From: a virus
Reading direction: 5' to 3' (one strand)
IMG/VR virus record: IMGVR_UViG_3300030109_005290
Location: 1 to 23,583 of that record
Length of the DNA: 23,583 bases
The position numbers and the translations under genes were made by a program. The notes under the pieces were generated by a model, which worked only from the letters and a program-made list of their open reading frames with translations, made no database searches and was not told the DNA's origin. Positions 7,647-23,403 of the stretch are shown piece after piece. Each line of letters starts with the position of its first letter. Within the stretch, counting starts at the first letter, position 1.

Positions 7647-8354
7647 ATGATAAGTGTAGATACTATATATCAAAGAGTTTTAGCGTTAGCTAATAAAGAA
7701 CAAAGAGGTTATATAACACCTCAAGAGTTTAATTTATTTGCTAATCAAGCACAAATGACTATATTTGAACAATATTTTTATGATTTAGATCAAGCAAAAA
7801 GAAATGAAATGAGTGATGAAGGTTCTTTTTCTGATATACCAGAGTTAATTAGAAATAAACTTAGACCTTTTATAACTACAGTTTCTCCAGTAGCTGGTCA
7901 AGCTTTTCCATCAAATTATAGAACTGGTAAAGTTTACGTTGGCGCAGGTCCAACTCCATTAGAAGCTAGAAAAGTTGATCATGTAGAAGCTTCTAATTTA
8001 TTTAATTCTACATTTCATAGAAAAGGTTTAGATCGTAATCCTATATATAGAGAAAGTGGCGCTAATCAAAAAGACATAGAAGCTTTTAATTCTAACGGTG
8101 TTATTACTAACCCTTTGCTTATTAAAGTTGAAATAGCTAGAGAACCAAATGAAGTTTTTTGGGGATATAACGTTGTTGACGAACAAGCACTTTATAACCC
8201 AACACATTCAGTAGATTTTGAACTACACCCTTCGGAAGAAATAACTTTAGTATATAAAATATTAACACTAGCTGGTATTACAATAAAAAATCCAGAAATA
8301 GTAAACGTTGGTCAAGGTTTACAAAATTTAAAAACTCAAAAAGAAAAAATATAA
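7647..8354 (+). CDS. Head-tail adaptor/ring protein candidate
   Basis: This 235-residue protein has a strongly conserved N-terminal helical block: ISVDTIYQRVLALANKEQRG, then YITPQEFNLFANQAQMTIFE and QYFYDLDQAK. That block is familiar from crAss-like and marine Bacteroidota podoviruses, where the gene lies among the ring or connector genes. The helical N-terminus resembles the general design of podovirus adaptor proteins that dock under the portal. The rest mixes beta and helix (TGKVYVGAG, HPSEEITLVYKILTLAGITI). The stop codon abuts the ATG of the next gene with no spacer, so the two products are probably made together. Assignment to the connector rests on family memory and position; a tail-tube-like role is the main alternative. 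Confidence 0.68.
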   Translation: MISVDTIYQRVLALANKEQRGYITPQEFNLFANQAQMTIFEQYFYDLDQAKRNEMSDEGSFSDIPELIRNKLRPFITTVSPVAGQAFPSNYRTGKVYVGAGPTPLEARKVDHVEASNLFNSTFHRKGLDRNPIYRESGANQKDIEAFNSNGVITNPLLIKVEIAREPNEVFWGYNVVDEQALYNPTHSVDFELHPSEEITLVYKILTLAGITIKNPEIVNVGQGLQNLKTQKEKI

Positions 8355-9674
8355 ATGGGATTATTAAATCAAACAGAGCAAGAATATTATAGTGGTAATG
8401 ATTTTGGAGGTTATCAATTTATATCGTTAGACGATGTTATTGATAATTTTATGGCTACTTATGTTGGAGAAAACAAATTGTTATCTAAAACTTTAAGAAG
8501 TGATGTTAGTTTTCATGCCCATAGAGCTTTGCAAGAATTAAGTTTTGATACTTTTAAATCTTGTAAAACACAAGAAATAGAAATACCACCGTCTTTAGTA
8601 ATGCCTTTACCACAAGATTATGTTAATTATGTAAAGTTATCTTGGAGTGACGATAGTGGTATTGAGCATATAATATATCCTACTAGTAAAACTTCTAATC
8701 CTAGACCAATAAAACAAAATGATGATGGAGAATATAAATTTCAAGCTATTGGTACTTTAACCAATGGTAGTAATGTTATAGTTTTAGACGGCGAATATAG
8801 TGAAGTTGTTGTTGGTATGTATGTTTCAGCTACAAATATACCAGGATCTAAAGCTATTATAAAAGCAACCTCAACTACTTCTGGCGTAACAACTATAACG
8901 CTTGATGCTTTAATAGTAGCTACTTATACAGGTGATGAAACATTAACTTTTACTAATAATGGTCTTTTGTTAGAACAAGTAGAAACATCTTTAGTTTTAA
9001 CTGGATTAACTTGGGTTAGTGCTTTAGATAAAATTACAGCTGCTTCAGCTAGCGATGCTTCAGCGGTTAAAGTTGGTATGAAAGTATCTCATGAAGATTT
9101 TCCTAGCAATACAACTGTTATAGATGTAAACGGAGCTGTAATAACAACTTCAGAAGATTCTACAGCGTCAGGTACTTCTGAAAATGTTAATTTTGTATCT
9201 TATACTAGAATATCTGATACTTGGGATAAATACAAAAGCCACACACCTTCTCAAAACAATACTAGTGATTATCAAGATTATCAAAACGATATATATTGGC
9301 CAAATGAAGGTAGAAGATATGGTTTAGATCCACAACACTCTCAAGTTAATGGTTCTTACTATATAGATTGTTCTGAAGGAAAAATACATTTTAGCTCTAA
9401 TATTTCAGGAAAAACTGTGATATTAAAGTATATAAGCGATAGTTTAGGAAGAGATCATGAAATGCAAGTACATAAATTTGCTGAAGAAGCTATATACAAG
9501 TGGATAGCTTATGGTTGTATGTCAGCTAGAATAGATATACCAGAGTATATAATTAGAAGATATAAAAAAGAAAGATTTGCTGAAACTAGAAAAGCAAAAT
9601 TAAGACTATCAAATATTAAAATAGAAGAAATTACTCAAATATTTAGAGGTAAATCAAAACAAATAAAACATTAA
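8355..9674 (+). CDS. Head-tail adaptor/ring or tail-tube protein with beta insertion
   Basis: This 439-residue protein has a conserved adaptor-like core split by a beta-rich insertion. The N-terminal core reads FISLDDVIDNFMATYVGENK, then SDVSFHAHRALQELSFDTFK and PPSLVMPLPQDYVNYVKLSW. The C-terminal core has an IHFSSNISGKTVILKYISD stretch, a helix EMQVHKFAEEAIYKWIAYG and a basic end. These cores match the ring/adaptor proteins of crAss-like phages, from memory, and the helical start resembles P22 gp4/T7 gp11-type adaptors in layout. Residues about 132-285 are two Thr/Ser/Val-rich units, each with a Gly-Met-x-Val step (G154-M155 and G241-M242), that look like small surface domains. The gene begins immediately after the previous stop, and the giant tail gene starts 6 bases after its own stop. 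Confidence 0.7.
   Translation: MGLLNQTEQEYYSGNDFGGYQFISLDDVIDNFMATYVGENKLLSKTLRSDVSFHAHRALQELSFDTFKSCKTQEIEIPPSLVMPLPQDYVNYVKLSWSDDSGIEHIIYPTSKTSNPRPIKQNDDGEYKFQAIGTLTNGSNVIVLDGEYSEVVVGMYVSATNIPGSKAIIKATSTTSGVTTITLDALIVATYTGDETLTFTNNGLLLEQVETSLVLTGLTWVSALDKITAASASDASAVKVGMKVSHEDFPSNTTVIDVNGAVITTSEDSTASGTSENVNFVSYTRISDTWDKYKSHTPSQNNTSDYQDYQNDIYWPNEGRRYGLDPQHSQVNGSYYIDCSEGKIHFSSNISGKTVILKYISDSLGRDHEMQVHKFAEEAIYKWIAYGCMSARIDIPEYIIRRYKKERFAETRKAKLRLSNIKIEEITQIFRGKSKQIKH
8748..9209 (+). other. Two GM-V beta modules inserted in the adaptor gene
   Basis: Residues about 132-202 and 215-285 share the pattern V-x-V-G-M-x-V-x(4)-[IF]-P-x(2)-[TK], followed by a beta strand ending in ITL or ITT. A third, similar unit lies in the protein encoded at 19697-21469, around G373-M374. 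They interrupt the conserved adaptor core and are probably displayed on the outside of the particle. Confidence 0.5.
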
Positions 9675-9680
9675 TATAAT

Positions 9681-12600
9681 ATGCTTGAATTGAATCACAA
9701 GTTTTATCAAGGTCGAATGAACAAAGATCTTGATGAAAGATTAGTGCCTAATGGTGAATATAGAGATGCGTTAAATATAGAAATAAACACATCAGAAGGA
9801 TCTAACATGGGTACGGTTCAAACTCTTATGGGTACAGAGGCTATATCTAATTTTATGAGTATGAATTTAGATTTATACTGCGTAGGTAGTATAGCTGATG
9901 AAAAAAATGATAAAATATACTGGATGGCTAGTGGTCAAGGTAAAGATATTATAGCTGAATATAATTACGTAGAAGAAACAATACATCCAGTTGTTGTTGA
10001 TATATTTCCAATAGGTACACCCGCTAACACTGATAGTGGAAGAACTCTAAATTTTGATAAATCTTTTTTAATAACAGGTATAAATATTATAGATGATATG
10101 TTATTTTGGACAGATAATAATTCTGAGCCAAAAAGAATACATATTGAAAGATGTAAAATGGGTACTACTAATTTTAGTACTCCTACAAAGCTTTTCGTAA
10201 GACATTATGTTACAGGTTCGTCTACGTTTACCGGTGATGACTTTATAGATTCTGGTAAACTTTTAAAACAAGAACATATAACTGTTATAAAAAAACCACC
10301 TTTAACACCTCCTCTACTCGAAATTAAAAGTACAACTAGAGAAGATATTGACGGTAATAACTCAATAGAAATATCAACAACTATATCAGCTTCTGGAAAT
10401 ATTTTTTCTGATACAAACGTTGTTATAGGTGTAGCTGGTTTAGCACCTTTAAATAACCCCGCTAATCATCCTGTTTTTGACACGCCTGCCGATTTTCAAA
10501 TTGGTGATACTTTACTTATAACTACAACAGGTAATAATCAAGTTTTTGAAATAAGAGCAAAAATTGTTAGTCAATCTTTTAATGGTAATTTTTATACTTT
10601 AGAAATTATAAAAAAAGATCCAAATATAACTAATGATTTAGATGTTTTTGAAGTAAAGTTAGAATTACCAGACCCACTATTCAAGTTTAAATTTCCTAGA
10701 TTTGCTTATAGATATAAATATGAAGATGGTGAGTATTCTACTTATTCACCTTTTACAGAAGTAGCTTTTTTACCTGGAGAATTTGATTATTTAAACAAAG
10801 AAGGTTATAATCTTGGTATGGTAAATAATGTAAGGTATTTAGCTATTAAAGATTTTGTTCATGAAAGATTAATACCAGATGATGTTGTAGCTATAGATAT
10901 TTTATATAAAGAATCAAACTCTCCAAATGTTTATTCTATAAAAACTATTAAAAAAGCTGTAAACACAGGGTTTTATAGTGTTCATGATGAGTGGAATGCT
11001 ATATCTAAAAATCAAGTAGTTCCTGCAGGTAGTAATCAAAGAACGAAAGGTTTTCTTGAAATAACATCTGAATTAATACATGGTATATTACCTTCTAATC
11101 AACTTTTACGTAATTATGATAATGTACCTAGAAAAGCCTTAGCTCAAGAAATTACTGGTAATAGAATAGTTTATGGTAATTATTTACAAAATTATGATTT
11201 ATCAAATAGGGAAGGAACTATATCATCAGCTTTAGAAGACTATGGTCCTTTATATGGTAGTTTAACAGCTCAAGAAAATATTAATGTAAATGTAGATGTT
11301 AAAATAAAAGAAGGTGTTGTTGGAGACACTATACCAACTCAACTTAATCCTTTTTATGCCGGTACTGACTCTGTATCTCCTTACGGACCAGCTAAATCAA
11401 TAAAAACATTAAGAACTTATCAAGTAGGTGTTGTTTATATAGATGAGTTTGGTAGAGAAACCCCTGTTTTTTCTGATAGTATTATAAATGATAATTCTAT
11501 AACAGTTAAAAAGATTTTTGCAGATAAAGCAACTAAATTATCAGCTCAAATTAAAAGTATAAAACCAGAGTGGGCTAAATATTTTAAGTTTTTTATTAAA
11601 GAAACTTCAAATGAATATTACAACTTAGCAATGGATCGTTGGTACAATGCTGAAGATGGTAATATTTGGTTGAGTTTTCCTTCATCTGAAAGAAATAAAG
11701 TAGATTTAGAAACATTTTTAATACTTAAAAAAGAACATGATACAGATGTTTTTACACCTGAAGATGTAAGATATAAAATAATTGCTATTGAAAACGAAGC
11801 TCCTTTGTTTATAAAAACAAGACAATATGTATCTGGTACTTTTCAAGATGATGGTACGAAATTAGGATCTTCAATATCAAACTTTCCTTTACCAGGAAAT
11901 ACCCAAGTAAGATTTGATAAAATTGCTTTTGAACAATTAGGTTGGGCAAACCCTTCTAGCTCAACAACAACTGGCACGCCTGGAGCTATGGAGCCAGGAA
12001 CACAAGGTACTCTTTATTTACAAAACTATGGAGAGTTCTTTATGAGGGCTAAAGTTAATAATGATTTTAGTGCTATGTATGAAATTAAAAATATAACTTT
12101 TAGCGCAGGTGGTAATGGTAGTTATATTGTAGAGTTTGCAAAACAATTTGAAGATGATATGTCTATAACTTCGGCTTCTTTAGGCCCAGATGCTTTTATA
12201 GACAGGTATTCAAATGTTGAAATGCATTTGTATAGAAATGAAGTTAGAAATAGACCTGAGTTTGATGGTAGATTTTTTGCTAAAATAAAAAAAGATGTTA
12301 ATTTAATAAATTCAATAATAAAAGAAGATTCTACTATTGGATCTTCTTACTATGTAACAAGTGCGGTGCAAGCTCAATATATTTCACCTTCAGACTGTAG
12401 CAAATACAAAAAAGCTGGAATGGCTGATATAGATGTTAATGATTGGTATGGTATTAGTGGTGGTGTTATTGGCCCTTCTTTTGAAAATCAATTATATAAA
12501 ATATCTACCAACGATAGTGGTATAGCTGAGTCTAGATGGAGTACTGGTGATCCAGGTCAAGGTAAAGAATATTGGAAGAAAGCTAGTTTTGGAGATAATG

Positions 12601-15600
12601 ATCCTTCTGGTATTTTTAATGCATCTACTAATACAAACGGTTTACAATCACAGTCTTCTGGTTGGTTTATTGATAAGATAGAAGGTTTTAGAAGATCTAA
12701 AGCCGCTTGGAAAAATTATGGAAAAATAATGGCAAACCATCCAGATTTTAGTTGGAGCGGTTATGGAACTCACCATGAAAAAGATAGTTTAAACGAAGTA
12801 AATCACGGATTTCTTGGTAGTTACAGTTACGGAGGAACTACTTATAACGAAACTTTTAAAGCTGGACTAGTTGCTACATCAACTTTTAGTGGAAATTTAG
12901 GAGAGTTTTATGATAGTTCTGACACAAGTGATTTTGGTCCATTAAATCAAATGCAATTAGAAGGAACTTCTACTATAGGTAGTGATGGTAATACTTGGCA
13001 TAATTATTTAGGAATAACTGACGCTAAAGGACCTTGGAATCAATTAGTCTATGATTTTACGGTTTCTAATGGAAACACTGGTTCAGAAGGAGTTAGTATG
13101 ATACATTGTAATTCAGATATGAATACTCCTAAAAATTTTGAAAAAGATAGCGGTATAGTTCCTTCTGTTGGTATACATGAGAATGTAGTTCATTTATCAT
13201 ATTCTGGTATTGGTTCTATAGAATCTTCCTCTAGTAATTACAACGATAGTGCAAATAATTATTTTGAATATTCTAACAATACAGCCCAAACACATGTAGC
13301 TGACATAGAATTTATAAACTCTATAACTACACCAGGTACTATATGGAGATGGAAAGAAGATCCGGGTCAATGTGTTTATCAAACTTTACAATATAACGCG
13401 AGTTACAACGCGCCTTTATTAGGAGAAACTTATCACTCTAATGTCGTTCCTTATCCAGCCGTCTCTGGTGTTTTTGATTATCAAAACTCTCCACCAGCTT
13501 CTTTGCAATCGCCTAATTTAGGTAATTTTGATTATACTAAACCTATTAATTTTACAGATCAACTTTGGCATTATAATAGTTTTGATCAATCTGAAGGCCA
13601 GAACGTACTTGGAGTTGCTTTATATAATTATTGTTCTTTAAGAGAATATCCTATAGATAATCCTCTTCAAGATTTTCCTATTTATAGTCACACAGGTTCT
13701 GGAGCTCATAGAGCGGGTGGTACTTATATGAACTGGTGGTGGTGGTTTGATGATGATAGCGCTGGGCAGGTTATGAGAAATAGAATGAGAGTTAATGCTA
13801 TTAAGAATTGCTCTGTTGTAGCTGTAAGAGATGTGGCAGATACACTTTCTGATGGACAAGATCCTCATACCGTAGACATGTTAGCTTGTAAACAGTGGGG
13901 TATGGGTTACAGATCAACTTATAACATCAGTAGTGGTGCCTCTACTAGCAGTATCTATTCAGAAAGCTGTTTTACCCATAACCATAATAGTATTGGTATA
14001 GCTCCTGCTTTAGGTAATTATGGAAAATGGCCTATGATGACTAGAGATTGGGGTAAACCTTATAACAAAAGAAGAAGATTTCAATTTTTTGCAAAATCTT
14101 TAGAAAGAAATACAGTTACAGGTGAAAGATATAATTTAGGTGAAGCTCCAGCAGATGTTAGTGCTACTAATCCTGGTCACCAACATTTATACTTACCAAC
14201 AAACGATCCAGATCTTCACCCTCATTTTGCTAGTGATTTTTCTGTATTAACTCTAGCTGGTGTTGCTAATACTGCTGACAATGCTAGTAATAACTATCCT
14301 AATCTACCTGGTACTCCAGCGCCTGGTATACGTCCTGATGGCGTGCATTCTGGTTATAAATATCCTGGTCCTAATTGGACTATTACAACTGGTGATACCA
14401 CTAACAAAAGTCATTCTTATGTTCCTTATTATAAAGTAATTGAAGGTACTGGTGGTAGTAATCCATCTTCACCTCCACCGGGATCATGTACTTGGCAAGT
14501 ATTATCAAAATTTAATTCTTATGAAGATGAAAAATACTCTAGTACAAACCCAGCTATATGGGAAACAGAGCCTAAAGAAGATATTGGTTTAGATATTTAT
14601 CACGAAATTGGACAAGTATACCCTATAGAACTAAACGAAAATACTGTAGAGCAATTTGTTGGTCCTATTAAAGATAATATAATTGAAAATTCTAGAGTTT
14701 CATGTTGGGTTCCTCCAACTGGACCTTGGAAAACCTTAGTATCAAATGCTGGTGGAGAAGATATTAGAGTTAATATTGCTACGCAAGGACCTAGTTTACA
14801 AACACCTCCAACTTTACCTGGAGATATGACTTTTATATCATTAGCAGATTCTGATGGAAACCCTGTTACTTTTTTACCTGGAGTTTCTGTTACTCCTGCT
14901 GTTAACGATATATTATACTTTACAAGAGCGGATGGTAGTGTTACATCAACTAAAGTTATAGAGTTAGCACCTCTTAATTTTGCTTACGCTTTGGCTCCAG
15001 ATGTTCATAATTATGAAGCCGTGCTTCCTTTCCATAATTGTTATTCATTTGGTAATGGTGTTGAGTCTGATAGAATACGTGATGATTTTAATCAAGTTAC
15101 TATAGATAACGGACCAAAAGCTTCAACTGTATTAGAAGAAACTTATGCTGAAGAAAGAAGAGGTAGTGGTTTAATTTATTCAGGTATATATAATTCTATG
15201 TCTGGTATAAATAATTTAAATCAATTTATTGCCGCTGAAAAAATAACAAAAGATTTAAACCCAAAATACGGTACAATACAAAAACTTCACTCAAGAAATA
15301 CTAATTTATTAACTCTTTGTGAAGATAAAGTATTTAAAATATTAGCTAATAAAGACGCTTTGTTTAACGCTGATGGAAACGCTAATCTTATATCTACTGA
15401 AAATGTTTTAGGACAAGCAACGCCATTATTAGGTGAATATGGTATATCAAAAAATCCAGAGTCTTTTGCTTCAGAATCTTATAGAACTTATTTTACTGAT
15501 AAAACAAGAGGAGCTGTTATAAGATTATCACAAGATGGCTTAACAGCTATATCAGATTATGGTATGAAAGACTACTTTTCAGATATTTTACCAAACTCTA

Positions 15601-18600
15601 ATAGAATAATTGGAAGTTATGATGATAAGAAAAAAGAATATAACTTAAGTGTAGATTATTATAACTATAATGTTTATAATGCTAAAATATTAGGTAGTTC
15701 AAAAACTGGTAATCCACCTTACACTCCAGAACCTAGATTAATACTTGATTGTAAAGACGCTGATAATATACAAGTCAATTATACTATTACTGGACCTGGT
15801 ATATCTCCAAATACTATTGTTGTTAGTAAAACAACTTTAGGTGGTGGTGAATGTCAAGTAGATTTAGACAAACCACCTATAGCAAACTTATCACAAAACC
15901 TTGGTAATTATTCACCTTATTCAGCAGGTGGTGTTGTTTATTGGTCAACAAAAATATCTTCTTCTAAAATTGTTCCAGATTTACCTAATACAACTATTAC
16001 TTTTTCTGAAATATCTAAAGGTTGGGTAAGTTTTAAATCTTGGTTTCAAGAAAATGGACTTAGTTTAAATAATAATTATTATTCTTTTAAACATGGTGAT
16101 TTACACAAACATCATTCAGATCAAGTTGATATAAATAATTTTTATGGTGATCAGTACGATTCTAGTATTCAAGTTCTTTTTAACGAAGATCCAGGAACTG
16201 TAAAAACTTTCCACTCTTTAAATTATGAAGGTAGTCAATCTCGTATATTAGAAAACTATGACACAGATGATTATTGGGATGATGTACATAAAGACGGTTG
16301 GTACGTTAGTAATCTACATACTAATTTACAGGAAGGTGATACACAAACGTTTAAAAATAAAGAAGGTAAATGGTTTTCTGAGATAAAAGGTCAAAGCACT
16401 GAGTGGTTAGATGATACAACTGCTGGAAATATAGATACTAAAGAATTTTCATATCAAGGAATAGATGAGACACATGGTATTACTACTTTACAAGGTGGTT
16501 TTACTTCTTGGGATTGTTTACCAGCTCAAAATCCTTGTAGTACTGGGTGTTATTATAGTTCAAGACAGTGGGGTGTACCTAGAAGTTTTTTAGGAACGTT
16601 TCAATCAACTCAGCAAGTACAAGATTTTTTCTGGGATCCAGTTAATCAAGCAAAACATCCTGGAGATTATTATACTATTATATTAGATCCACCAGGTAAT
16701 ACTAACTACAACGCACCAGGTCCAGGTTATAATTACGTTAATGGTGTGGATAACGCGCAAGGACATTACGCTTGTAGCTCTAGTTACGTGCTTTTTCCTA
16801 TTACAAACCCTGATGTTTTTCCAAACGCCCCAGCGTATAATACTTGGAACAATCCCCAAATTGGACAATATCCCTCGTCATATGTTGTAGAATGTCCTAA
16901 TATTTCTAGCTCTACAGGTCCATTTATATCTTCATCAAATCAAGTAAATCAATGTGGTCAAAGACGTTTTGAGTCTGTATTTGAAATTATAGAAGATTTT
17001 GCAACCTATGTAGATTCAACAGCTTTTTATCATGGTATGAGTAGAGCAGATTTTCTAGCAGCTATTTATCCTAATAATCCTCCGGCCGGTATGGGTTTTG
17101 TTGGGCCTGGTTTTCCTGAAAACTGGCTACAACATTTTGCAGATGCAAAACCAATAGCTACAAGTACTCCTAGCTTTACATGTGTAGAAATACAAGGTTT
17201 AGGAGGTGCTTATGCTGACGAAGCCGCGTGTTATGCAGATGTTAATTCACCGTGTACACCTGTTCCTGAAACATATAACTGTATAACAGGTCAATGTATA
17301 GATCCTAACGATGGATCTGGAGCGTTTACTGGTGTTAATGCTTTACTAGATTGTTTATCTGTTTGTCAACCTTGTACGCCAGCAACTTTAAGCACAACAA
17401 CTACAGACGCTACAAATGTACCTGGAACATCTAATTGTTATGATGATGGTGAAATTAGTATTACAGCTATAACACTTGGTGCTACTTGGACTTATGAAAT
17501 TTTTGACGTTGCGAGTGTACTTGCTTTTAATTCAACAACACCTGTTTCAACTGGTGGTACAGATAGTTCTGGTAATATTTTATTCCCAGGAAACTATACG
17601 TTAATAGTTACTGATGATTTAGGCTGTACAACTTCTGTAGGTTTTACAATAAATTGTTCTTTACCTCCAGTCCCAGCTTGTCCTACAACAGGTCCTTACA
17701 CATCTTATCTTGGGCCTAACACCACGCCTCATGAGTTTACAGCTTACGACGTGCAACCAAGTAATTATCCAGCTTGTGATAACGGAGAGTTAAGATGTAG
17801 CGCTTTAACACTTGGTTCTAGTAATTGGACAGCTTTTAATCCAGCTTATACTGTAGAGTGGTTTGAGCTTGATAATTCAGGTAATCTTACATCTATATAT
17901 AATGATCCATTTGCTTACGGTCAAGGACAAGCAACAACTCCTGTAACAGGTTTAACACCTGGTGATTATATATTTGAAATAACAGAATTAAGCGGTGATG
18001 CTTGTAAGTATCAATATGGTCCTTTTAATTTAGCTCAATGCCCTGTAATAACAGGACCTTGTACTAACCCTATAACATATCCTTATAATTCTTCAACTAC
18101 TTTTAATATAGGTCCTTGCTCTCAAACACCAGTTACAAATTTCGACGCTTGGCTTGGTCATTTGGGCCCAACAGATATAATAGACAACATGTGTTTAAAT
18201 AGGTGTGAACCATACGAACCAGATGGTTATGTTATTAATCAAGGCGCCGTTAGACATTACTTAGGTTGTATACCTACAGATGCTGCTTATGTTAAAGTTG
18301 CTTACTATGGTACTGGTGGCGGTTTTTCGATTGATTCAGATAGTTTACTATTTGATGATCCAACACAATATACAGGTAATCAATATATAATATGGGACAC
18401 GGTAGAACCTACTAGAGAACAAATGGATTTAGGACCTGGGGCTCTTGGGCCAGGCCCACAATCTCCTAGTGGTAGTAAGTATCAATTTACTATGATAATA
18501 ACAGCGTATGATGCTAATGGTGTTTATTTAGATGATGAAAATAATAATGTTTGCGGTTCATCAAGACTGTGGTATCATCCATGTGAATGTAACACAAATA

Positions 18601-19667
18601 CTGGTTTAAATGGTTGGGAGTGTAGCGTAAGTGGTTGCGTGCCTGTACAACAAGGATCTTTTCCAGCTATAAATTTTCCTAATTTATATAGTTGTAACAA
18701 TGGATATGTTTATGGGGGTGTATATTATAGTGGTTGTATTAGCAGTCAAGTAAGTGGATGTATGGATCCAAATGCTACTAATTATGACCCTACTGCAACG
18801 TTGCATGTTGCTAGTAATTGTCAATACGCTCCAATAGCGTGTGAAGGTAGTTTTGGCGGTAGCATAATAGATGATTATGAGTTTAATATTTTAGGTGTTG
18901 GTCCTTTACCTTGGATTGAAGATACTACCACTTATACTGAGGCTGTATACACAAATAATCAATGGAGATCAGCAATGCAAAACGTTATAACTAACCAACC
19001 ACCTACATCTCCAGTGATAAGTGCAGGTGGACCTATTGGGTTTTATCCTTCTTGGAAAAGCTACAGCATGACAGGCGGTGCTCCAACCGGAAACTCATAT
19101 GTAACTGAAATAATACAAAACCAATCAAACAACCCAGCACAGTTAGTTATGGGTATTACAGGAACACCAGATCCAGCTTACAACTGGGCTTCAGGTATTT
19201 ATACAATGATGCAAGTGTTAACAAAAAATACTTATCAAGTAACTGTAAATATATCTCAAATATATGACGCAAGTGGTGTTGGTTTTTGTGGTGGTGCTGG
19301 GGCAAACGCTTGTTCTTCGCCTACTACAAAAGGAAGACTTCAGGTGATGCAAAGTAGTTTTCCTTGGACACATCCTAATACTCCAAACAGTAACGATGTG
19401 TATGGATTACAACATCATCCAGGTTTTGGTACTGCTTTACCAGTTGCTAGTTTTGATTTTGATGATTCACTTTTTAACCCTTCAACAGGTGTTGCTACTC
19501 CAACTGCAAGTTTTACAATAGAATTTACTGTAGCCGATACAAATCAATATCCAACACCTAATGATCCTATTCGGGAGTTGCTAATTATACAACTTGATGG
19601 TTATTATGAACAAAAAATTTTTATAGATAGTGTTTGTGTTATAAAAATAGCAGGCCCAACTCCGTAA
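9681..19667 (+). CDS. Giant nozzle/muzzle-type tail protein fused to adhesin-like C-terminal modules
   Basis: This is one uninterrupted frame of 3328 residues. The N-terminal part looks like the beta-propeller tail-tip (nozzle, muzzle or stabilization) proteins of podoviruses. It has YQGRMNKDLDERLVPNGEYR at 8-27, propeller-like IYW at 79-81 and FWTD at 142-145, FAYRYKYEDGEYSTYSPFT at 341-359, GNRIVYGNY near 493-501, and TYQVGVVYIDEFGRETPVF at 579-597. Conserved propeller sequence resumes at about 1806-1985 (TYAEERRGSGLIYSGIYN, LLGEYGISKNPESFASESYR) and runs to about 2263. Between about 900 and 1800 lies a large, less familiar Trp/Gly/Asn/Ser-rich segment. From about 2265 to the end it is Cys-rich and adhesin-like: Cys modules, two SprB-like repeats (2565-2787), a GCxDPxAxNYxPxA motif (3026-3049) and a final beta-sandwich-like domain (3054-3328). 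No signal peptide or membrane segment is seen. It probably closes the tail channel and carries receptor-binding parts. The N-terminal assignment is firm; the C-terminal role is inferred. Confidence 0.8.
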   Translation: MLELNHKFYQGRMNKDLDERLVPNGEYRDALNIEINTSEGSNMGTVQTLMGTEAISNFMSMNLDLYCVGSIADEKNDKIYWMASGQGKDIIAEYNYVEETIHPVVVDIFPIGTPANTDSGRTLNFDKSFLITGINIIDDMLFWTDNNSEPKRIHIERCKMGTTNFSTPTKLFVRHYVTGSSTFTGDDFIDSGKLLKQEHITVIKKPPLTPPLLEIKSTTREDIDGNNSIEISTTISASGNIFSDTNVVIGVAGLAPLNNPANHPVFDTPADFQIGDTLLITTTGNNQVFEIRAKIVSQSFNGNFYTLEIIKKDPNITNDLDVFEVKLELPDPLFKFKFPRFAYRYKYEDGEYSTYSPFTEVAFLPGEFDYLNKEGYNLGMVNNVRYLAIKDFVHERLIPDDVVAIDILYKESNSPNVYSIKTIKKAVNTGFYSVHDEWNAISKNQVVPAGSNQRTKGFLEITSELIHGILPSNQLLRNYDNVPRKALAQEITGNRIVYGNYLQNYDLSNREGTISSALEDYGPLYGSLTAQENINVNVDVKIKEGVVGDTIPTQLNPFYAGTDSVSPYGPAKSIKTLRTYQVGVVYIDEFGRETPVFSDSIINDNSITVKKIFADKATKLSAQIKSIKPEWAKYFKFFIKETSNEYYNLAMDRWYNAEDGNIWLSFPSSERNKVDLETFLILKKEHDTDVFTPEDVRYKIIAIENEAPLFIKTRQYVSGTFQDDGTKLGSSISNFPLPGNTQVRFDKIAFEQLGWANPSSSTTTGTPGAMEPGTQGTLYLQNYGEFFMRAKVNNDFSAMYEIKNITFSAGGNGSYIVEFAKQFEDDMSITSASLGPDAFIDRYSNVEMHLYRNEVRNRPEFDGRFFAKIKKDVNLINSIIKEDSTIGSSYYVTSAVQAQYISPSDCSKYKKAGMADIDVNDWYGISGGVIGPSFENQLYKISTNDSGIAESRWSTGDPGQGKEYWKKASFGDNDPSGIFNASTNTNGLQSQSSGWFIDKIEGFRRSKAAWKNYGKIMANHPDFSWSGYGTHHEKDSLNEVNHGFLGSYSYGGTTYNETFKAGLVATSTFSGNLGEFYDSSDTSDFGPLNQMQLEGTSTIGSDGNTWHNYLGITDAKGPWNQLVYDFTVSNGNTGSEGVSMIHCNSDMNTPKNFEKDSGIVPSVGIHENVVHLSYSGIGSIESSSSNYNDSANNYFEYSNNTAQTHVADIEFINSITTPGTIWRWKEDPGQCVYQTLQYNASYNAPLLGETYHSNVVPYPAVSGVFDYQNSPPASLQSPNLGNFDYTKPINFTDQLWHYNSFDQSEGQNVLGVALYNYCSLREYPIDNPLQDFPIYSHTGSGAHRAGGTYMNWWWWFDDDSAGQVMRNRMRVNAIKNCSVVAVRDVADTLSDGQDPHTVDMLACKQWGMGYRSTYNISSGASTSSIYSESCFTHNHNSIGIAPALGNYGKWPMMTRDWGKPYNKRRRFQFFAKSLERNTVTGERYNLGEAPADVSATNPGHQHLYLPTNDPDLHPHFASDFSVLTLAGVANTADNASNNYPNLPGTPAPGIRPDGVHSGYKYPGPNWTITTGDTTNKSHSYVPYYKVIEGTGGSNPSSPPPGSCTWQVLSKFNSYEDEKYSSTNPAIWETEPKEDIGLDIYHEIGQVYPIELNENTVEQFVGPIKDNIIENSRVSCWVPPTGPWKTLVSNAGGEDIRVNIATQGPSLQTPPTLPGDMTFISLADSDGNPVTFLPGVSVTPAVNDILYFTRADGSVTSTKVIELAPLNFAYALAPDVHNYEAVLPFHNCYSFGNGVESDRIRDDFNQVTIDNGPKASTVLEETYAEERRGSGLIYSGIYNSMSGINNLNQFIAAEKITKDLNPKYGTIQKLHSRNTNLLTLCEDKVFKILANKDALFNADGNANLISTENVLGQATPLLGEYGISKNPESFASESYRTYFTDKTRGAVIRLSQDGLTAISDYGMKDYFSDILPNSNRIIGSYDDKKKEYNLSVDYYNYNVYNAKILGSSKTGNPPYTPEPRLILDCKDADNIQVNYTITGPGISPNTIVVSKTTLGGGECQVDLDKPPIANLSQNLGNYSPYSAGGVVYWSTKISSSKIVPDLPNTTITFSEISKGWVSFKSWFQENGLSLNNNYYSFKHGDLHKHHSDQVDINNFYGDQYDSSIQVLFNEDPGTVKTFHSLNYEGSQSRILENYDTDDYWDDVHKDGWYVSNLHTNLQEGDTQTFKNKEGKWFSEIKGQSTEWLDDTTAGNIDTKEFSYQGIDETHGITTLQGGFTSWDCLPAQNPCSTGCYYSSRQWGVPRSFLGTFQSTQQVQDFFWDPVNQAKHPGDYYTIILDPPGNTNYNAPGPGYNYVNGVDNAQGHYACSSSYVLFPITNPDVFPNAPAYNTWNNPQIGQYPSSYVVECPNISSSTGPFISSSNQVNQCGQRRFESVFEIIEDFATYVDSTAFYHGMSRADFLAAIYPNNPPAGMGFVGPGFPENWLQHFADAKPIATSTPSFTCVEIQGLGGAYADEAACYADVNSPCTPVPETYNCITGQCIDPNDGSGAFTGVNALLDCLSVCQPCTPATLSTTTTDATNVPGTSNCYDDGEISITAITLGATWTYEIFDVASVLAFNSTTPVSTGGTDSSGNILFPGNYTLIVTDDLGCTTSVGFTINCSLPPVPACPTTGPYTSYLGPNTTPHEFTAYDVQPSNYPACDNGELRCSALTLGSSNWTAFNPAYTVEWFELDNSGNLTSIYNDPFAYGQGQATTPVTGLTPGDYIFEITELSGDACKYQYGPFNLAQCPVITGPCTNPITYPYNSSTTFNIGPCSQTPVTNFDAWLGHLGPTDIIDNMCLNRCEPYEPDGYVINQGAVRHYLGCIPTDAAYVKVAYYGTGGGFSIDSDSLLFDDPTQYTGNQYIIWDTVEPTREQMDLGPGALGPGPQSPSGSKYQFTMIITAYDANGVYLDDENNNVCGSSRLWYHPCECNTNTGLNGWECSVSGCVPVQQGSFPAINFPNLYSCNNGYVYGGVYYSGCISSQVSGCMDPNATNYDPTATLHVASNCQYAPIACEGSFGGSIIDDYEFNILGVGPLPWIEDTTTYTEAVYTNNQWRSAMQNVITNQPPTSPVISAGGPIGFYPSWKSYSMTGGAPTGNSYVTEIIQNQSNNPAQLVMGITGTPDPAYNWASGIYTMMQVLTKNTYQVTVNISQIYDASGVGFCGGAGANACSSPTTKGRLQVMQSSFPWTHPNTPNSNDVYGLQHHPGFGTALPVASFDFDDSLFNPSTGVATPTASFTIEFTVADTNQYPTPNDPIRELLIIQLDGYYEQKIFIDSVCVIKIAGPTP
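13734..13745 (+). other. Four consecutive Trp codons in the tail protein
   Basis: TGG occurs four times in frame, giving Trp at residues 1352-1355, followed by Phe and three Asp. The run lies in the large, poorly recognisable middle segment of the giant tail protein. Confidence 0.9.
17181..17371 (+). other. Cys-rich mini-modules preceding the SprB-like repeats
   Basis: Two short Cys modules lie here. The first begins at C2501 (CVEIQGLGGAYADEAAC). The second spans 2534-2562, with CITGQC at the front, a Gly-x-Phe centre and CLSVC at the end. A third with the same C-x4-C, Gly-x-Phe, Leu-x-x-Cys layout begins at C2981 (CSVSGC), just before the GCxDPxAxNYxPxA motif. They look like small disulfide-bonded spacers typical of extracellular proteins of Bacteroidota. 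Confidence 0.5.
17373..17657 (+). other. SprB-like repeat 1 in the tail protein
   Basis: Residues 2565-2659, framed by Cys, show the SprB-repeat layout: a Cys followed by DDGEISITAITLG, a Trp-Thr-Tyr strand, then LFPGNYTLIVTDDLGC and a closing strand. SprB repeats occur in gliding-motility adhesins and other secreted proteins of Bacteroidota. The match is by eye; no profile search was possible. Confidence 0.6.
17679..18041 (+). other. SprB-like repeat 2 in the tail protein
   Basis: Residues 2667-2787 repeat the layout of the preceding unit: CDNGELRCSALTLGSSNW, then YTVEWFELD, LTPGDYIFEITELSGDAC and a final strand ending in Cys. Shared positions with repeat 1 are the G-E-[IL], the A-x-TLG-[AS] step, the PG-x-Y turn and the T-[DE] before the late Cys. 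It is divergent and longer than repeat 1. Confidence 0.52.
18756..18827 (+). other. GCxDPxAxNYxPxA element in the tail protein
   Basis: Residues 3026-3049 read GCMDPNATNYDPTATLH, then Val-Ala-Ser-Asn-Cys. This closely follows a short element, GC-x-DP-x-A-x-NY-x-P-x-A with a closing SC or NC, that is common in secreted and surface proteins of marine Bacteroidota, from memory. Asp/Asn spacing suggests possible calcium binding, by analogy only. Confidence 0.65.
18840..19664 (+). other. C-terminal beta-sandwich-like domain of the tail protein
   Basis: Residues 3054-3328 alternate short polar and hydrophobic strands, for example KNTYQVTVNISQIYDASG, FTIEFTVADTN, LLIIQLDGYYEQKIFIDSV. The pattern resembles carbohydrate-binding or jelly-roll domains and has the extreme C-terminal position where receptor-binding parts often sit. 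No specific family is recognised. Confidence 0.4.
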
Positions 19668-19696: not shown

Positions 19697-21469
19697 ATGA
19701 TTTTTAATCCATATATATATAAATTATATTATCCAAATGGCGATTCTGAATATAGCGGTGGAGGAGCTGAAGGTGGTCGAGGTGAAGGCGAAAGCCCAAG
19801 CGGTGAACCAACCGGTGGCGGAACTATGTATAGCACAACTACTACTAGTGGTGGTGAAGTAGAAAATAACGGTAGGAGAGAAGACGATTATTTACAACCT
19901 GAATTTTGGCTAAAAAGAAAAGATCCAAATGATACTAGTAAAACAAAAGAAATAAATGTATTTACAATAGAATCTATTAAAGGTAACGCTGGGTTTATAG
20001 ATCCTAAAGGTGAAAGAAAAAGAATAAATATATTTGGTACAGCTGGTGCTATTTTTTCGCTAACAGTTAAAGATAGTTCTGGTTGTAATATATTAAGAGA
20101 AAAAGTAGAAAATGTTTCAATACCTGAAAGTGGTAGATATATTATTGTTCAAGATTTTCCATCTATTATTTCTGATGGTAGTTTTACCAAAACAAAAGAA
20201 ACTTATAGCATAGAAATAACACCCGCGGCTGACGTTTATTTAAACTCTGTAACTAAAATGTTGATAGAGCAAATAGCAGATCCAGTTATAACTGTTACTA
20301 AAACAACTTCACAAACATCCCCAGCTTTATCTATTGCTAGTGTTGATGATTTGGAAATAACTGGACCGGCTAGATCAAAAAATAACAGAGCAGCTTCAGT
20401 TTACACTTTAACAGTTACAGAAAACCCAGAAGATTCTGCTGGTAAGCTTTATGTTAAAAGTACAAATTTTAATGATAATATTAGTTCTAACACATTAATA
20501 AAAAAACTAGTTAATAGAGGTGGCGACGACGTTAAAGGTTCTACTAATACTTATACTTTAGACCATTTAACCACTAGAACAACTAGTACTATTGAAAATA
20601 GTGATGGTGCTAGAATTAGAAATGCAGATGGTAGTTTTACAGAAAACACAAACACAACGCATGAATTAATAAACGGTATGACAGCGTATGCTAAAGTTGT
20701 TTATGATAGAGAATTTGTGGCTAATTTAGACGAAAATAATAATGTTTTAGACGGTAATTGTCAAACAATACCCACAAGAATTAAAATAAATAATACTAAC
20801 GATTTGTTTGCAGGTATGCATGTTTATGGAGATGTAGAAAGCGGAACTATACTCGCAAGAGTTGATTGTGATAAAACAATTACTATTATACCTGGACAAA
20901 TTATTAAAAACAATACAACTCTTAGATTTGAAAAAAGATATTATAACTCAGTGTCAGAGGTTTTAACAAATAACAACTCTAGGCAACAAGCTGAAATACG
21001 ATTAATGGCAGATGAAGATATTCCTAATGGTACAGAAGTTGAATTTGATAATGATAAAAACCAAATAACAGGAGTTGTAAGATTTGATACTAGTGGTGCT
21101 GATCAAATAGTGTTAAAAGCACATGTTAAACCAATTAAATTTGGCGATGCTAACGTTACTTATACTTTAAATTTAGATAATTTAATAACATCTAAACCAA
21201 ATGCATATAATAAAAGCGTGTCTACTAAAAAAAATACAGCTGTAACTATAAATATGATAGAAAATGATTATGATGCTAACCGCGCAAACAAAACAGGTAC
21301 CGTTGTGAAAAAACCCACAAATGGTTTAGTTGGTGATTATGTTACTTCAACCGATTCTTTTACATATACACCAAATCCTGGTTTTACAGGTGAAGATATA
21401 TTTACATTTACAATGAGTGACGGTACGAATTCTAGTGATGAAAAAACAGTTACAATAAAAGTTATTTAA
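19697..21469 (+). CDS. Virion-associated protein with C-terminal cadherin-like/Ig-like (Big_9-type) domain
   Basis: This 590-residue protein probably belongs to the tail or its appendages. After a short aromatic start, residues about 20-55 are Gly/Ser/Thr/Glu-rich and probably disordered. The middle is beta-rich and not recognised as a whole. Around 360-412 is a unit with DLFAGMHVYGDVESGTILAR and TITI, resembling the two GM-V modules in the protein at 8355-9674. Residues 500-590 carry a clear tandem cadherin-like/Big_9 layout: a start near KPNAYNKSVS, then MIENDYDAN, DSFTYTPNPGFTGEDIFTFT and SDGTNSSDEKTVTIKV. Such domains serve as adhesive or spacer modules on bacterial surface proteins and phage fibres. 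It starts 29 bases after the giant tail gene, and its stop is followed after 1 base by the next ATG. Host attachment is an inference from the domain and neighbourhood. Confidence 0.65.
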   Translation: MIFNPYIYKLYYPNGDSEYSGGGAEGGRGEGESPSGEPTGGGTMYSTTTTSGGEVENNGRREDDYLQPEFWLKRKDPNDTSKTKEINVFTIESIKGNAGFIDPKGERKRINIFGTAGAIFSLTVKDSSGCNILREKVENVSIPESGRYIIVQDFPSIISDGSFTKTKETYSIEITPAADVYLNSVTKMLIEQIADPVITVTKTTSQTSPALSIASVDDLEITGPARSKNNRAASVYTLTVTENPEDSAGKLYVKSTNFNDNISSNTLIKKLVNRGGDDVKGSTNTYTLDHLTTRTTSTIENSDGARIRNADGSFTENTNTTHELINGMTAYAKVVYDREFVANLDENNNVLDGNCQTIPTRIKINNTNDLFAGMHVYGDVESGTILARVDCDKTITIIPGQIIKNNTTLRFEKRYYNSVSEVLTNNNSRQQAEIRLMADEDIPNGTEVEFDNDKNQITGVVRFDTSGADQIVLKAHVKPIKFGDANVTYTLNLDNLITSKPNAYNKSVSTKKNTAVTINMIENDYDANRANKTGTVVKKPTNGLVGDYVTSTDSFTYTPNPGFTGEDIFTFTMSDGTNSSDEKTVTIKVI

Positions 21470-21470
21470 A

Positions 21471-22454
21471 ATGCCTATAGTACAATTTACATTTTCACAT
21501 AAATTAAATGAATCAGTTCAAGTAGGTGATATTGCTTACTTTAGTAATCCAACAGCGGTACCGCCTCCTGGAACTAGTAATTGGTATGGGACTATACCAG
21601 CATTATCAAACGCTCATGGCACAAGTTATCCTCCACATAAAACTTCTATTAGAGAAGATATTATAAAAATTGGTGAAATAGAAGAGATTATATTCTGGGA
21701 TGGTTCAACTAATTCTATAATATGTAATATGAGTCAGGCTTTATATAATTCTTACGCTAATAATTTTGTTGTAGGTGGTTCAACTTATCAATACAACTTT
21801 ATTACAGGTACAGGTGCTATAGCTGGATATCAAACAGTTGCTAATATATATCCTCTTGATTTTACTAATTATCACTCTTGTGCTACTTGTCAAAATTCAG
21901 CTGCGTTAGCTGCAAACATGCCAAACCCTTTACCTATATATCTTCAAGCTAATCAACAAGAAAATATTGTTAATGTAGTTTTTAGATATGTAAGAGACGG
22001 TGATCAAAATGTTTGGATATCTGACGGATATGCAGCAATACCTACTAATGATCCTTATTACCAACCTGGTAGAATAAATGGTTTTATCGCTGTAAGTGGT
22101 TTTACAATAATAGATAATAGTGGAACAACTTACTACGAACCTCAAAATACAACTACTTTACCTTTTCCTGTTGTTGCAGATCCATTAAAGCCTTATAGTT
22201 ATGGTGTAGCTGCACAAGCATATCCTAACGCTGTTAGTATAGAACCCACTGATTTCGTGCCTTTAAAAGGTACTGTTGGTAATGGAACTCTTGTTAATAC
22301 TCAAGGTAGTTTTATTATGTTTAGTAAAAATAATAAAGCTAATCAATCTGATGTATTAGGTTATTACGCGTTAGTAGAATTTAGAAATAGTGCTATAAAT
22401 ACAGGTTCAGAGCTATTTAATGCCGGTATAACATACTCTAACAGTAGTAAATAA
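21471..22454 (+). CDS. Conserved phage protein of unknown function, probable tail component
   Basis: This 327-residue protein has no function I can name. It begins with VQFTFSHKLNESVQVGDIAY, has a central IIFWDGSTNSIICNMSQA segment and a single CATC Cys pair (about residues 138-141). It ends with a distinctive DVLGYYALVEFRNSAINTGS, then ELFNAGITYSNSSK, a C-terminal pattern that recurs in marine phage proteins near tail genes, from memory. The sequence is rich in Tyr, Asn, Thr, Gly and Pro, with no signal peptide, membrane segment or coiled coil, as in beta-rich virion proteins. Its ATG lies 1 base after the previous TAA, so it is probably co-translated with the cadherin-like-domain gene. A tail-tip or fibre role is a guess from position. 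Confidence 0.65.
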   Translation: MPIVQFTFSHKLNESVQVGDIAYFSNPTAVPPPGTSNWYGTIPALSNAHGTSYPPHKTSIREDIIKIGEIEEIIFWDGSTNSIICNMSQALYNSYANNFVVGGSTYQYNFITGTGAIAGYQTVANIYPLDFTNYHSCATCQNSAALAANMPNPLPIYLQANQQENIVNVVFRYVRDGDQNVWISDGYAAIPTNDPYYQPGRINGFIAVSGFTIIDNSGTTYYEPQNTTTLPFPVVADPLKPYSYGVAAQAYPNAVSIEPTDFVPLKGTVGNGTLVNTQGSFIMFSKNNKANQSDVLGYYALVEFRNSAINTGSELFNAGITYSNSSK

Positions 22455-22506: not shown

Positions 22507-23403
22507 ATGAGTAAATCACCTTTAAAATTTGCTGATCCGTTTACAGTAGGCGCAATAATTAGCGGTGTTGGCGCGGTAGGAAAACTTATAGCTGGTTTTA
22601 GCGGAAGATCAGGTAGAATAAGAGAGCAAAAACAAGCTCAAGAAGAATATAGACGAAGAATGAGTGACTACGAAAAGCTTGATACTAGCAATATATATGC
22701 TGATGTAAAAAATCCTTATGAGTTTGTTCAAAATCCATATGCTAATATAGAAACACAATTTGAAAACGTTTTTGAAGATATGACTGTTAATCAACAACAA
22801 GCTCAATTTGAAAAACAAATGTTTCAACAACAGCAAGCTGATACTTTACAAGGTTTAAGAGGTGCTGCTGGGGGAAGTGGTATTGCTGGTTTGGCTCAAG
22901 CTATGGCTAATCAAGGTCAACTACAAGCTCAAAGAGCAGCTGCTTCTATAGGTGCACAAGAATCTCAAATACAACAATTAACAGCACAAGGAGCTGATCA
23001 AGCTAGACGTATGCGACAGCAAGCAGAGATTACTAGAATGCAGGGTGCTGAAGAAGCAAATAGACTTAGAATGCAAGGGGCTTATCAAGCTGAAATGCAA
23101 AGATTATCTGGAGAAGAAACATCTAGAGGTCTAGAATACCAAAAAACAGGTACAATGCTAGGTATGTCACAACAAAGAGTAGCTGCCGCTAATTTAGCAA
23201 GACAACAAGCTCTTCAAAATCAAATGTCTGCTTTTGGCGATATAGCAGGGTTAGGAATAAGCATGATAACAGGTCCTGATGGTGGTAGTACTAGAAGAGC
23301 AGCTCCAGCTCCTACATTTGAAAACCCAACAATTGAACAAGCTGCTGCAAATGCTAGAAGAAACCAGAAACTAAAAGAAGAGTTTTATAAAAATAATAAA
23401 TAA
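22507..23403 (+). CDS. Internal virion (ejection/cargo) protein candidate, T7 gp14-like layout
   Basis: This 298-residue protein has the build of a podovirus ejection protein. A hydrophobic Gly-rich segment (about 11-31, FTVGAIISGVGAVGKLIAGF) is followed by a basic helical stretch (about 33-56). A pair of related NPYEF/NPYAN units lies at about 71-82. Residues about 92-235 are a long Gln/Ala/Met/Arg-rich helical region, interrupted by a Gly-rich hinge (RGAAGGSGIAG). A second hydrophobic segment (about 242-257, AFGDIAGLGISMITG) precedes a polar tail. T7 gp14 and similar proteins have this mix of membrane-active and helical sequence and form a channel across the host envelope after ejection. 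Position after the tail genes and before a second protein with a hydrophobic start fits that role. It follows a 52-base A/T-rich gap with a weak purine run (GAAAAG) before the ATG. Confidence 0.68.
   Translation: MSKSPLKFADPFTVGAIISGVGAVGKLIAGFSGRSGRIREQKQAQEEYRRRMSDYEKLDTSNIYADVKNPYEFVQNPYANIETQFENVFEDMTVNQQQAQFEKQMFQQQQADTLQGLRGAAGGSGIAGLAQAMANQGQLQAQRAAASIGAQESQIQQLTAQGADQARRMRQQAEITRMQGAEEANRLRMQGAYQAEMQRLSGEETSRGLEYQKTGTMLGMSQQRVAAANLARQQALQNQMSAFGDIAGLGISMITGPDGGSTRRAAPAPTFENPTIEQAAANARRNQKLKEEFYKNNK

Follow-up and report, generated by a model that had tools for sequence, protein, structure and literature searches.

We propose that in a marine crAss-related podovirus the muzzle (nozzle) protein probably carries receptor-binding modules built into its own polypeptide chain. 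The window, meaning the whole stretch of DNA that was analysed, is a linear virus record of 23,583 bases. One ORF (9681-19667) with an ATG start runs uninterrupted for 3328 codons and occupies 9987 of the 23583 bases (42.3%, agreeing with the 42% given in the initial annotation). In a gate protein with its own binding arm, the coupling between surface binding and gate opening in short-tailed phages becomes testable within one chain.

Genomic surroundings of the muzzle frame

The window encodes, in order, terminase, portal, a 393-aa protein, a capsid-type virion protein, further virion proteins, the 3328-aa protein and three smaller products. The genes around the large frame are as follows.

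7647..8354, + strand: tail ring (barrel) protein, 235 aa (PHROG 14543; hhalign against crAss001 ring gp34, E 9e-5, 171 columns, hhalign probability 60%)
8355..9674, + strand: 439-aa virion protein between the ring and muzzle genes (PHROG 13977)
9681..19667, + strand: muzzle protein with adhesin-like C-terminal extension, 3328 aa (ORF, PHROG, Pfam, relatives)
19697..21469, + strand: 590-aa protein with C-terminal Big_9/cadherin-like domain (Big_9, E 4.6e-13)
21471..22454, + strand: 327-aa protein, ends conserved, middle variable (relatives' loci)
22507..23403, + strand: 298-aa protein, possible cargo protein (weak hhalign match to gp45, E 9e-4, 57 columns, hhalign probability 23%)

The same gene order is found in Cellulophaga phage phi38:1 (Pervagoviridae) and the Flavobacterium elemo phages, and Tenacibaculum phage Gundel (Pachyviridae) has a similar order over the structural genes. 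A nucleotide search of the window against phages returned no matches. The phage is placed beside the marine Pervagoviridae and Pachyviridae.

The 439-aa protein is longer than phi38:1 gp96 (283 aa) and gave no hhalign match to crAss001 ring or hub proteins. The 590-aa product varies in length among relatives and is a possible second adhesin. In many relatives, proteins of 106-158 aa match the ends of the 327-aa protein, whose middle is an insert, apparently another case of a module inserted into a small virion gene.

Identity and architecture of the muzzle core

The 3328-aa protein is related to the muzzle protein of crassviruses (phicrAss001 gp44), as the initial annotation had proposed. This identity follows from PHROG 14478, PF25729, hhalign matches to both ends of gp44, Foldseek matches to gp44 structures and a position after the ring gene as in crAss001. 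PHROG 14478 matches the protein in four stretches (E 2.8e-134; best stretch aa 1781-2037), and Pfam crAss_MUZ_C (PF25729) matches aa 2151-2236 (E 4.9e-10; 40.2 bits against a curated cut-off of 27). With hhalign, a profile of 47 relatives aligned with gp44 aa 8-154 (E 7e-4), and a profile of mostly short-muzzle relatives with gp44 aa 1051-1281 (E 2e-7). An AlphaFold model of aa 1-931 (47 sequences; mean pLDDT 71) gave as its sole Foldseek PDB matches below E 1e-3 the gp44 structures 7qol (5e-5) and 7qok (1.5e-4), with probability 1.00. The comparison with gp44 matched 683 columns at a global TM-score of 0.24, the domain packing not being reproduced. Propeller proteins followed at lower probability; no closed seven-bladed propeller is visible in the model, which ends before the second half of the propeller (about aa 1605-2000).

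The full-length Pfam model crAss_MUZ (PF25731), which is dominated by distant members, did not match the window protein at E 0.01; it does match the relative from Gundel (7e-17). PDB sequence searches gave nothing usable with the whole protein and one chance hit with the N-terminal (A1) profile. Homology to known muzzles is thus seen through Pfam, PHROGs, hhalign and Foldseek, and not through PDB sequence search.

Relatives are encoded by 520 stretches in IMG/VR, of which 80 were kept. In the shortest full-frame relatives the core comprises about 1340-1420 aa. In the window protein, muzzle similarity falls in the N-terminal part and about aa 1605-2263, and the conserved core of about 1400 aa is interrupted or extended at three places: about aa 925-1600, about aa 1993-2100, and by 1065 aa after MUZ_C. 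The parts of the protein are as follows.

9681..12320, + strand: conserved N-terminal muzzle core, aa 1-880 (covered in 68-80 of 80 loci; Foldseek 7qol/7qok; hhalign to gp44 aa 8-154)
12453..14480, + strand: variable insert where gp44 has its crass domain, about aa 925-1600 (spacing in relatives; low coverage)
15006..15656, + strand: conserved C-terminal core, aa 1776-1992, counterpart of gp44 from about aa 1051 onward (late propeller) (PHROG 14478; hhalign)
15657..15980, + strand: insert between propeller and MUZ_C, about aa 1993-2100 (lengths in relatives)
15981..16469, + strand: MUZ_C region, aa 2101-2263 (PF25729)
16470..19664, + strand: adhesin-like C-terminal extension, aa 2264-3328 (length variable in relatives; conservation gradient; no separate-gene homologue)
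17163..17366, + strand: Cys-rich module that relatives share best within the extension, about aa 2495-2562 (about 18 of 22 close relatives cover it; invariant Cys in A3)
17367..18038, + strand: two tandem Ig/FN3-like beta-sandwich domains, predicted, aa 2563-2663 and 2683-2786 (AlphaFold, Foldseek, mutual similarity)
18081..19664, + strand: hypervariable tip, aa 2801-3328 (zero coverage; only a GCxDxxAxNYxPxA motif has sequence relatives)

The segment at aa 1806-2263, listed in the initial annotation as nozzle-like, does match muzzle proteins, but it is the C-terminal half of the same core, following an insert of ~675 aa, rather than a second nozzle part. Across 55 closed frames, the spacing from the N2 end to the late propeller ranges from 334 to 1061 aa, with the window protein having the largest, and the propeller/MUZ_C junction ranges from 2 to 433 aa. 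In Maribacter phage Panino (L085:8416-12326), the muzzle homologue is broken within the propeller into two overlapping frames (8416-11253 and 11193-12326), which looks like either a frameshift in the record or a programmed frameshift.

Composition of the C-terminal extension

The extension has a high cysteine content (40 Cys in 1065 aa, compared to 15 in the first 2263 aa) and is low in lysine and arginine. Its description as ~1060 residues of Cys-rich, repeat-containing sequence holds for the 40 cysteines and for a tandem Ig-like repeat, but the Cys motifs are not provable as repeats, and a blastp self-comparison of the protein found none. The Ig/FN3 pair is the sole part of the extension modelled with confidence by AlphaFold (pLDDT mostly 70-90), and alignment of the two domains to each other (2560-2665 against 2680-2790) scored better than 300 of 300 shuffles (z 5.7). 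The Foldseek matches of the pair cover a wide range of Ig/FN3 proteins, among them the bacterial adhesins RbmA, SiiE and GhpA. Since these matches span many unrelated Ig/FN3 proteins, the model indicates a predicted fold and not a function.

The tip was modelled at low confidence (mean pLDDT 43.9), and a terminal beta-domain at about aa 3170-3328 is possible, again at low confidence. In the tip region, phmmer found a match to the end of one related muzzle (L031, E 3.5e-4). A CBM4/9-like terminal domain, suspected from the sequence pattern, was left unconfirmed because the model is too poor there.

Searches of Pfam, NCBIfam and PHROGs with the window extension gave zero matches, as did tblastn of the extension against phages. 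Scanning IMG/VR with aa 2264-2800 likewise found nothing, and with aa 2801-3328 recovered only a motif of 20-35 aa. A scan of GTDB genomes with the extension found no relative, so a bacterial origin of its modules is not supported. The tails of related muzzles hold other surface-type modules, namely LRR/PARCEL-type DUF285 and, weakly, SdrD_B and PKD. These modules, the Ig/FN3 pair and the composition rich in Cys and poor in K/R speak for an extension that is adhesin-like and exposed. Three of the relatives' tails (L014 at 18668-19081, L020 and L028) end at the extreme C-terminus in a complete HINT (intein/hedgehog-type) self-processing domain, reading CFVGDT...TSDHPYY...VLVHNKG-stop in L014; such a domain might self-cleave or couple the tail to another molecule. 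An IMG/VR scan with the L014 domain found only the two contigs already holding HINT.

Variation of the extension among relatives

Coverage by close relatives declines along the extension: all 22 cover MUZ_C, about 9-18 of 22 cover aa 2300-2600, and coverage is zero past aa 2800; over the last 530 aa conservation has fully faded and nothing matches. Related pairs differ abruptly. L014 and L020 are 95% identical either side of an indel of ~180 aa right after MUZ_C; the identity of L011 to L013 is 86% as far as aa ~2650, with divergence beyond. Such differences suggest that muzzles with closely related cores exchange tail modules. The extension thus combines adhesin-type domains with a hypervariable distal end. 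No diversity-generating retroelement is evident as the source of the variability: RVT_1 was absent from all 19 related records searched, many of which are fragments.

The tail after MUZ_C ranges from 10 to 1509 aa in the 55 closed frames, varying continuously and always within the muzzle frame. Long muzzles are common here, and the window protein is no isolated oddity, contrary to the initial view of an unusual design. On a core tree of 47 rows, 34 of the 44 scored rows are extended (tail of at least 150 aa) and 10 are short; this state changes at least five times, which points to repeated gain or loss of the extension. The window protein lies inside a well supported clade of long-tailed muzzles. 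The initial annotation had asked whether related phages carry the C-terminal part as a separate gene; in the loci of the 80 fetched relatives, no separate ORF outside the muzzle resembles the extension.

A second variable site lies at the propeller/MUZ_C junction. Two genes together encode the muzzle in phi13:2 and in MW202828, and in phi13:2 and Manatee Spring phage (L084) the split falls exactly between propeller and MUZ_C. In phi13:2 (L086:9010-14580), gp120 comprises the core plus about 490 aa with Big_9, and gp121 (241 aa) is MUZ_C. In phi18:3 and phi19:3 the match likewise spans two annotated genes. Three relatives (L015, L016 and L059) have inserts of 282-433 aa at the same junction, and in two of them, L016 and L059, the insert contains the GCxDxxAxNYxPxA motif of C-terminal tails. 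The two sites, junction and C-terminus, look like sockets for one module set.

A proposed model of a gate with built-in arms

The muzzle is expected as six copies closing the tail. In the model we favour, the extension would start beside the ring-joining (platform) domain and hang as six flexible arms round the muzzle, with the outermost module binding a host surface polysaccharide or protein. A pull on the covalent arms would help trigger opening of the muzzle gate, releasing cargo proteins and DNA. The initial proposal that the protein has its own receptor-binding modules stands as regards adhesin-type domains and variability; from these we infer receptor binding, and the arm of the 3328-aa protein probably grips the host.

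Because MUZ_C follows the propeller, it would lie on the ring-joining side, and the tail would then start at the barrel/muzzle junction. By analogy with T7 gp12, the extension probably leaves the tail next to the barrel, at the place of the T7 fibre dock, and not at the very tip of the tail where the adhesin had first been placed. The propeller/MUZ_C variable site would also match the T7 fibre dock in topology.

The crAss001 tail hub proteins THA and THB, which are the fibre holders in crAss001, were not found in 15 relatives; among the 16 records searched, which did not include the window, the THA, THB and ring 3/4 models matched crAss001 alone. The missing hub genes fit built-in arms only weakly, since the ring 3/4 model also misses the ring gene in these phages, where hhalign suggests that one is present. 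The phage may have separate fibres as well: the gene that follows the muzzle (590 aa) likewise has a bacterial Ig domain at its end. About a fifth of the scored relatives have short muzzles, and those phages must bind their hosts by other means. The 590-aa neighbour could be the main adhesin instead.

A broader proposal, possible but distinctly more tentative, is that in the marine crAss-related branch the muzzle took over the job of docked fibres. Six covalent arms would stand where T7 docks fibres, receptor binding would pull the gate directly, and the junction and C-terminus would be exchangeable sockets for the same module set. If built-in arms are confirmed, they mark where host-range determinants should be sought in widespread marine flavobacterial phages, whose receptor-binding proteins are unannotated.

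Alternative explanations

The extension could serve as generic decoration of the surface, adhering to matrix, mucus or polysaccharide and raising the encounter rate, with specific receptor binding left to a different protein, for example the 590-aa product. Decoration is a frequent role of Ig-like domains on phage heads and tails, the extension of one relative matches PHROG 2973, a Hoc-like decoration family, and the Big_9 domain of the 590-aa neighbour would suit a division of labour of this kind. However, the tip varies faster than the rest of the protein and is part of a tail protein, not of a head protein, and we regard decoration as unlikely. An enzymatic role, for example as a polysaccharide depolymerase, is considerably less probable still. 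Marine flavobacteria have thick polysaccharides and the tip is unclassified, but the family searches described above found no enzyme family in the window extension.

Two further explanations question whether the extension is present on the virion, or in the gene, at all. It might be made and then cleaved off in the course of assembly, having served as a pro-peptide or intramolecular chaperone. The HINT domains that end three relatives would accord with such processing, but no HINT or protease domain was found in the window protein, and Ig and Cys-rich modules are atypical of pro-peptides, making cleavage improbable. An artefact of sequencing or assembly that joined two genes could be imagined for a single contig, given the two-gene muzzles of phi13:2 and MW202828. 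The phi13:2 split, however, precedes MUZ_C rather than falling at the start of the extension, and 29 relatives from other contigs have muzzle ORFs that are closed and end in tails of 500 aa or more. Because the same continuous frame recurs in these 29 further contigs, chance and assembly error were excluded, and the artefact, by far the least credible of the alternatives, was rejected. The adhesin-like part is truly fused, as first claimed, and a muzzle with built-in receptor-binding arms is the reading we retain.

Comparison with known muzzles and nozzles

The muzzle of crassviruses is a hexamer that gates the tail (PMC10172136). phicrAss001 gp44 (PDB 7qok, 7qol; PMC10172136) shares with the window protein a homologous N- and C-terminal core, MUZ_C, and the order ring, muzzle, cargo-like gene. 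In contrast, gp44 has 1371 aa, its MUZ_C ends 38 aa before the C-terminus, and it has no extension. Eight other gut or marine Crassvirales muzzles (phi14:2, cr115, cr60, cr1, cr113, cr52, cr108 and cr111) also end near the end of the gp44 match, without extension. The nearest isolates by muzzle sequence, phi38:1 (gp97, 1324 aa), Tenacibaculum Gundel and the Flavobacterium elemo phages, have the same gene order and a single muzzle gene, but only about 100-155 aa follow their MUZ_C match. phi13:2 likewise has a muzzle with an adhesin-type domain; there MUZ_C is a separate gene, and the adhesin part follows the propeller and not MUZ_C. For this phage only a single type of ring protein is reported, R1 and R2, which make up the hub interface, being absent (PMC10172136).

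T7 gp12 is a functional counterpart, a hexameric nozzle with propeller and platform, beside which fibres dock (PMC6702177). Its C-terminal domain is the platform, and the dock lies beside it, between propeller and platform (PMC6702177). Unlike in the window phage, the T7 fibres are a separate protein, gp17, and PDB chain searches with the window protein or the A1 profile found no sequence homology to gp12. The bacterial adhesins RbmA, SiiE and Aureispira GhpA share only a fold with the tandem domains (8-17% identity), and non-adhesin Ig/FN3 proteins match similarly.

Length variation of crassvirus muzzles has been described only as insertions in the crass and IG2 regions (PMC10172136). A search of openly licensed papers found no description of a C-terminal adhesin tail on a muzzle, and the fusion is not described for gut crAss viruses with the same gate protein. 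The C-terminal adhesin tail is thus a second mode of muzzle diversification, besides the published internal insertions of gut crassviruses.
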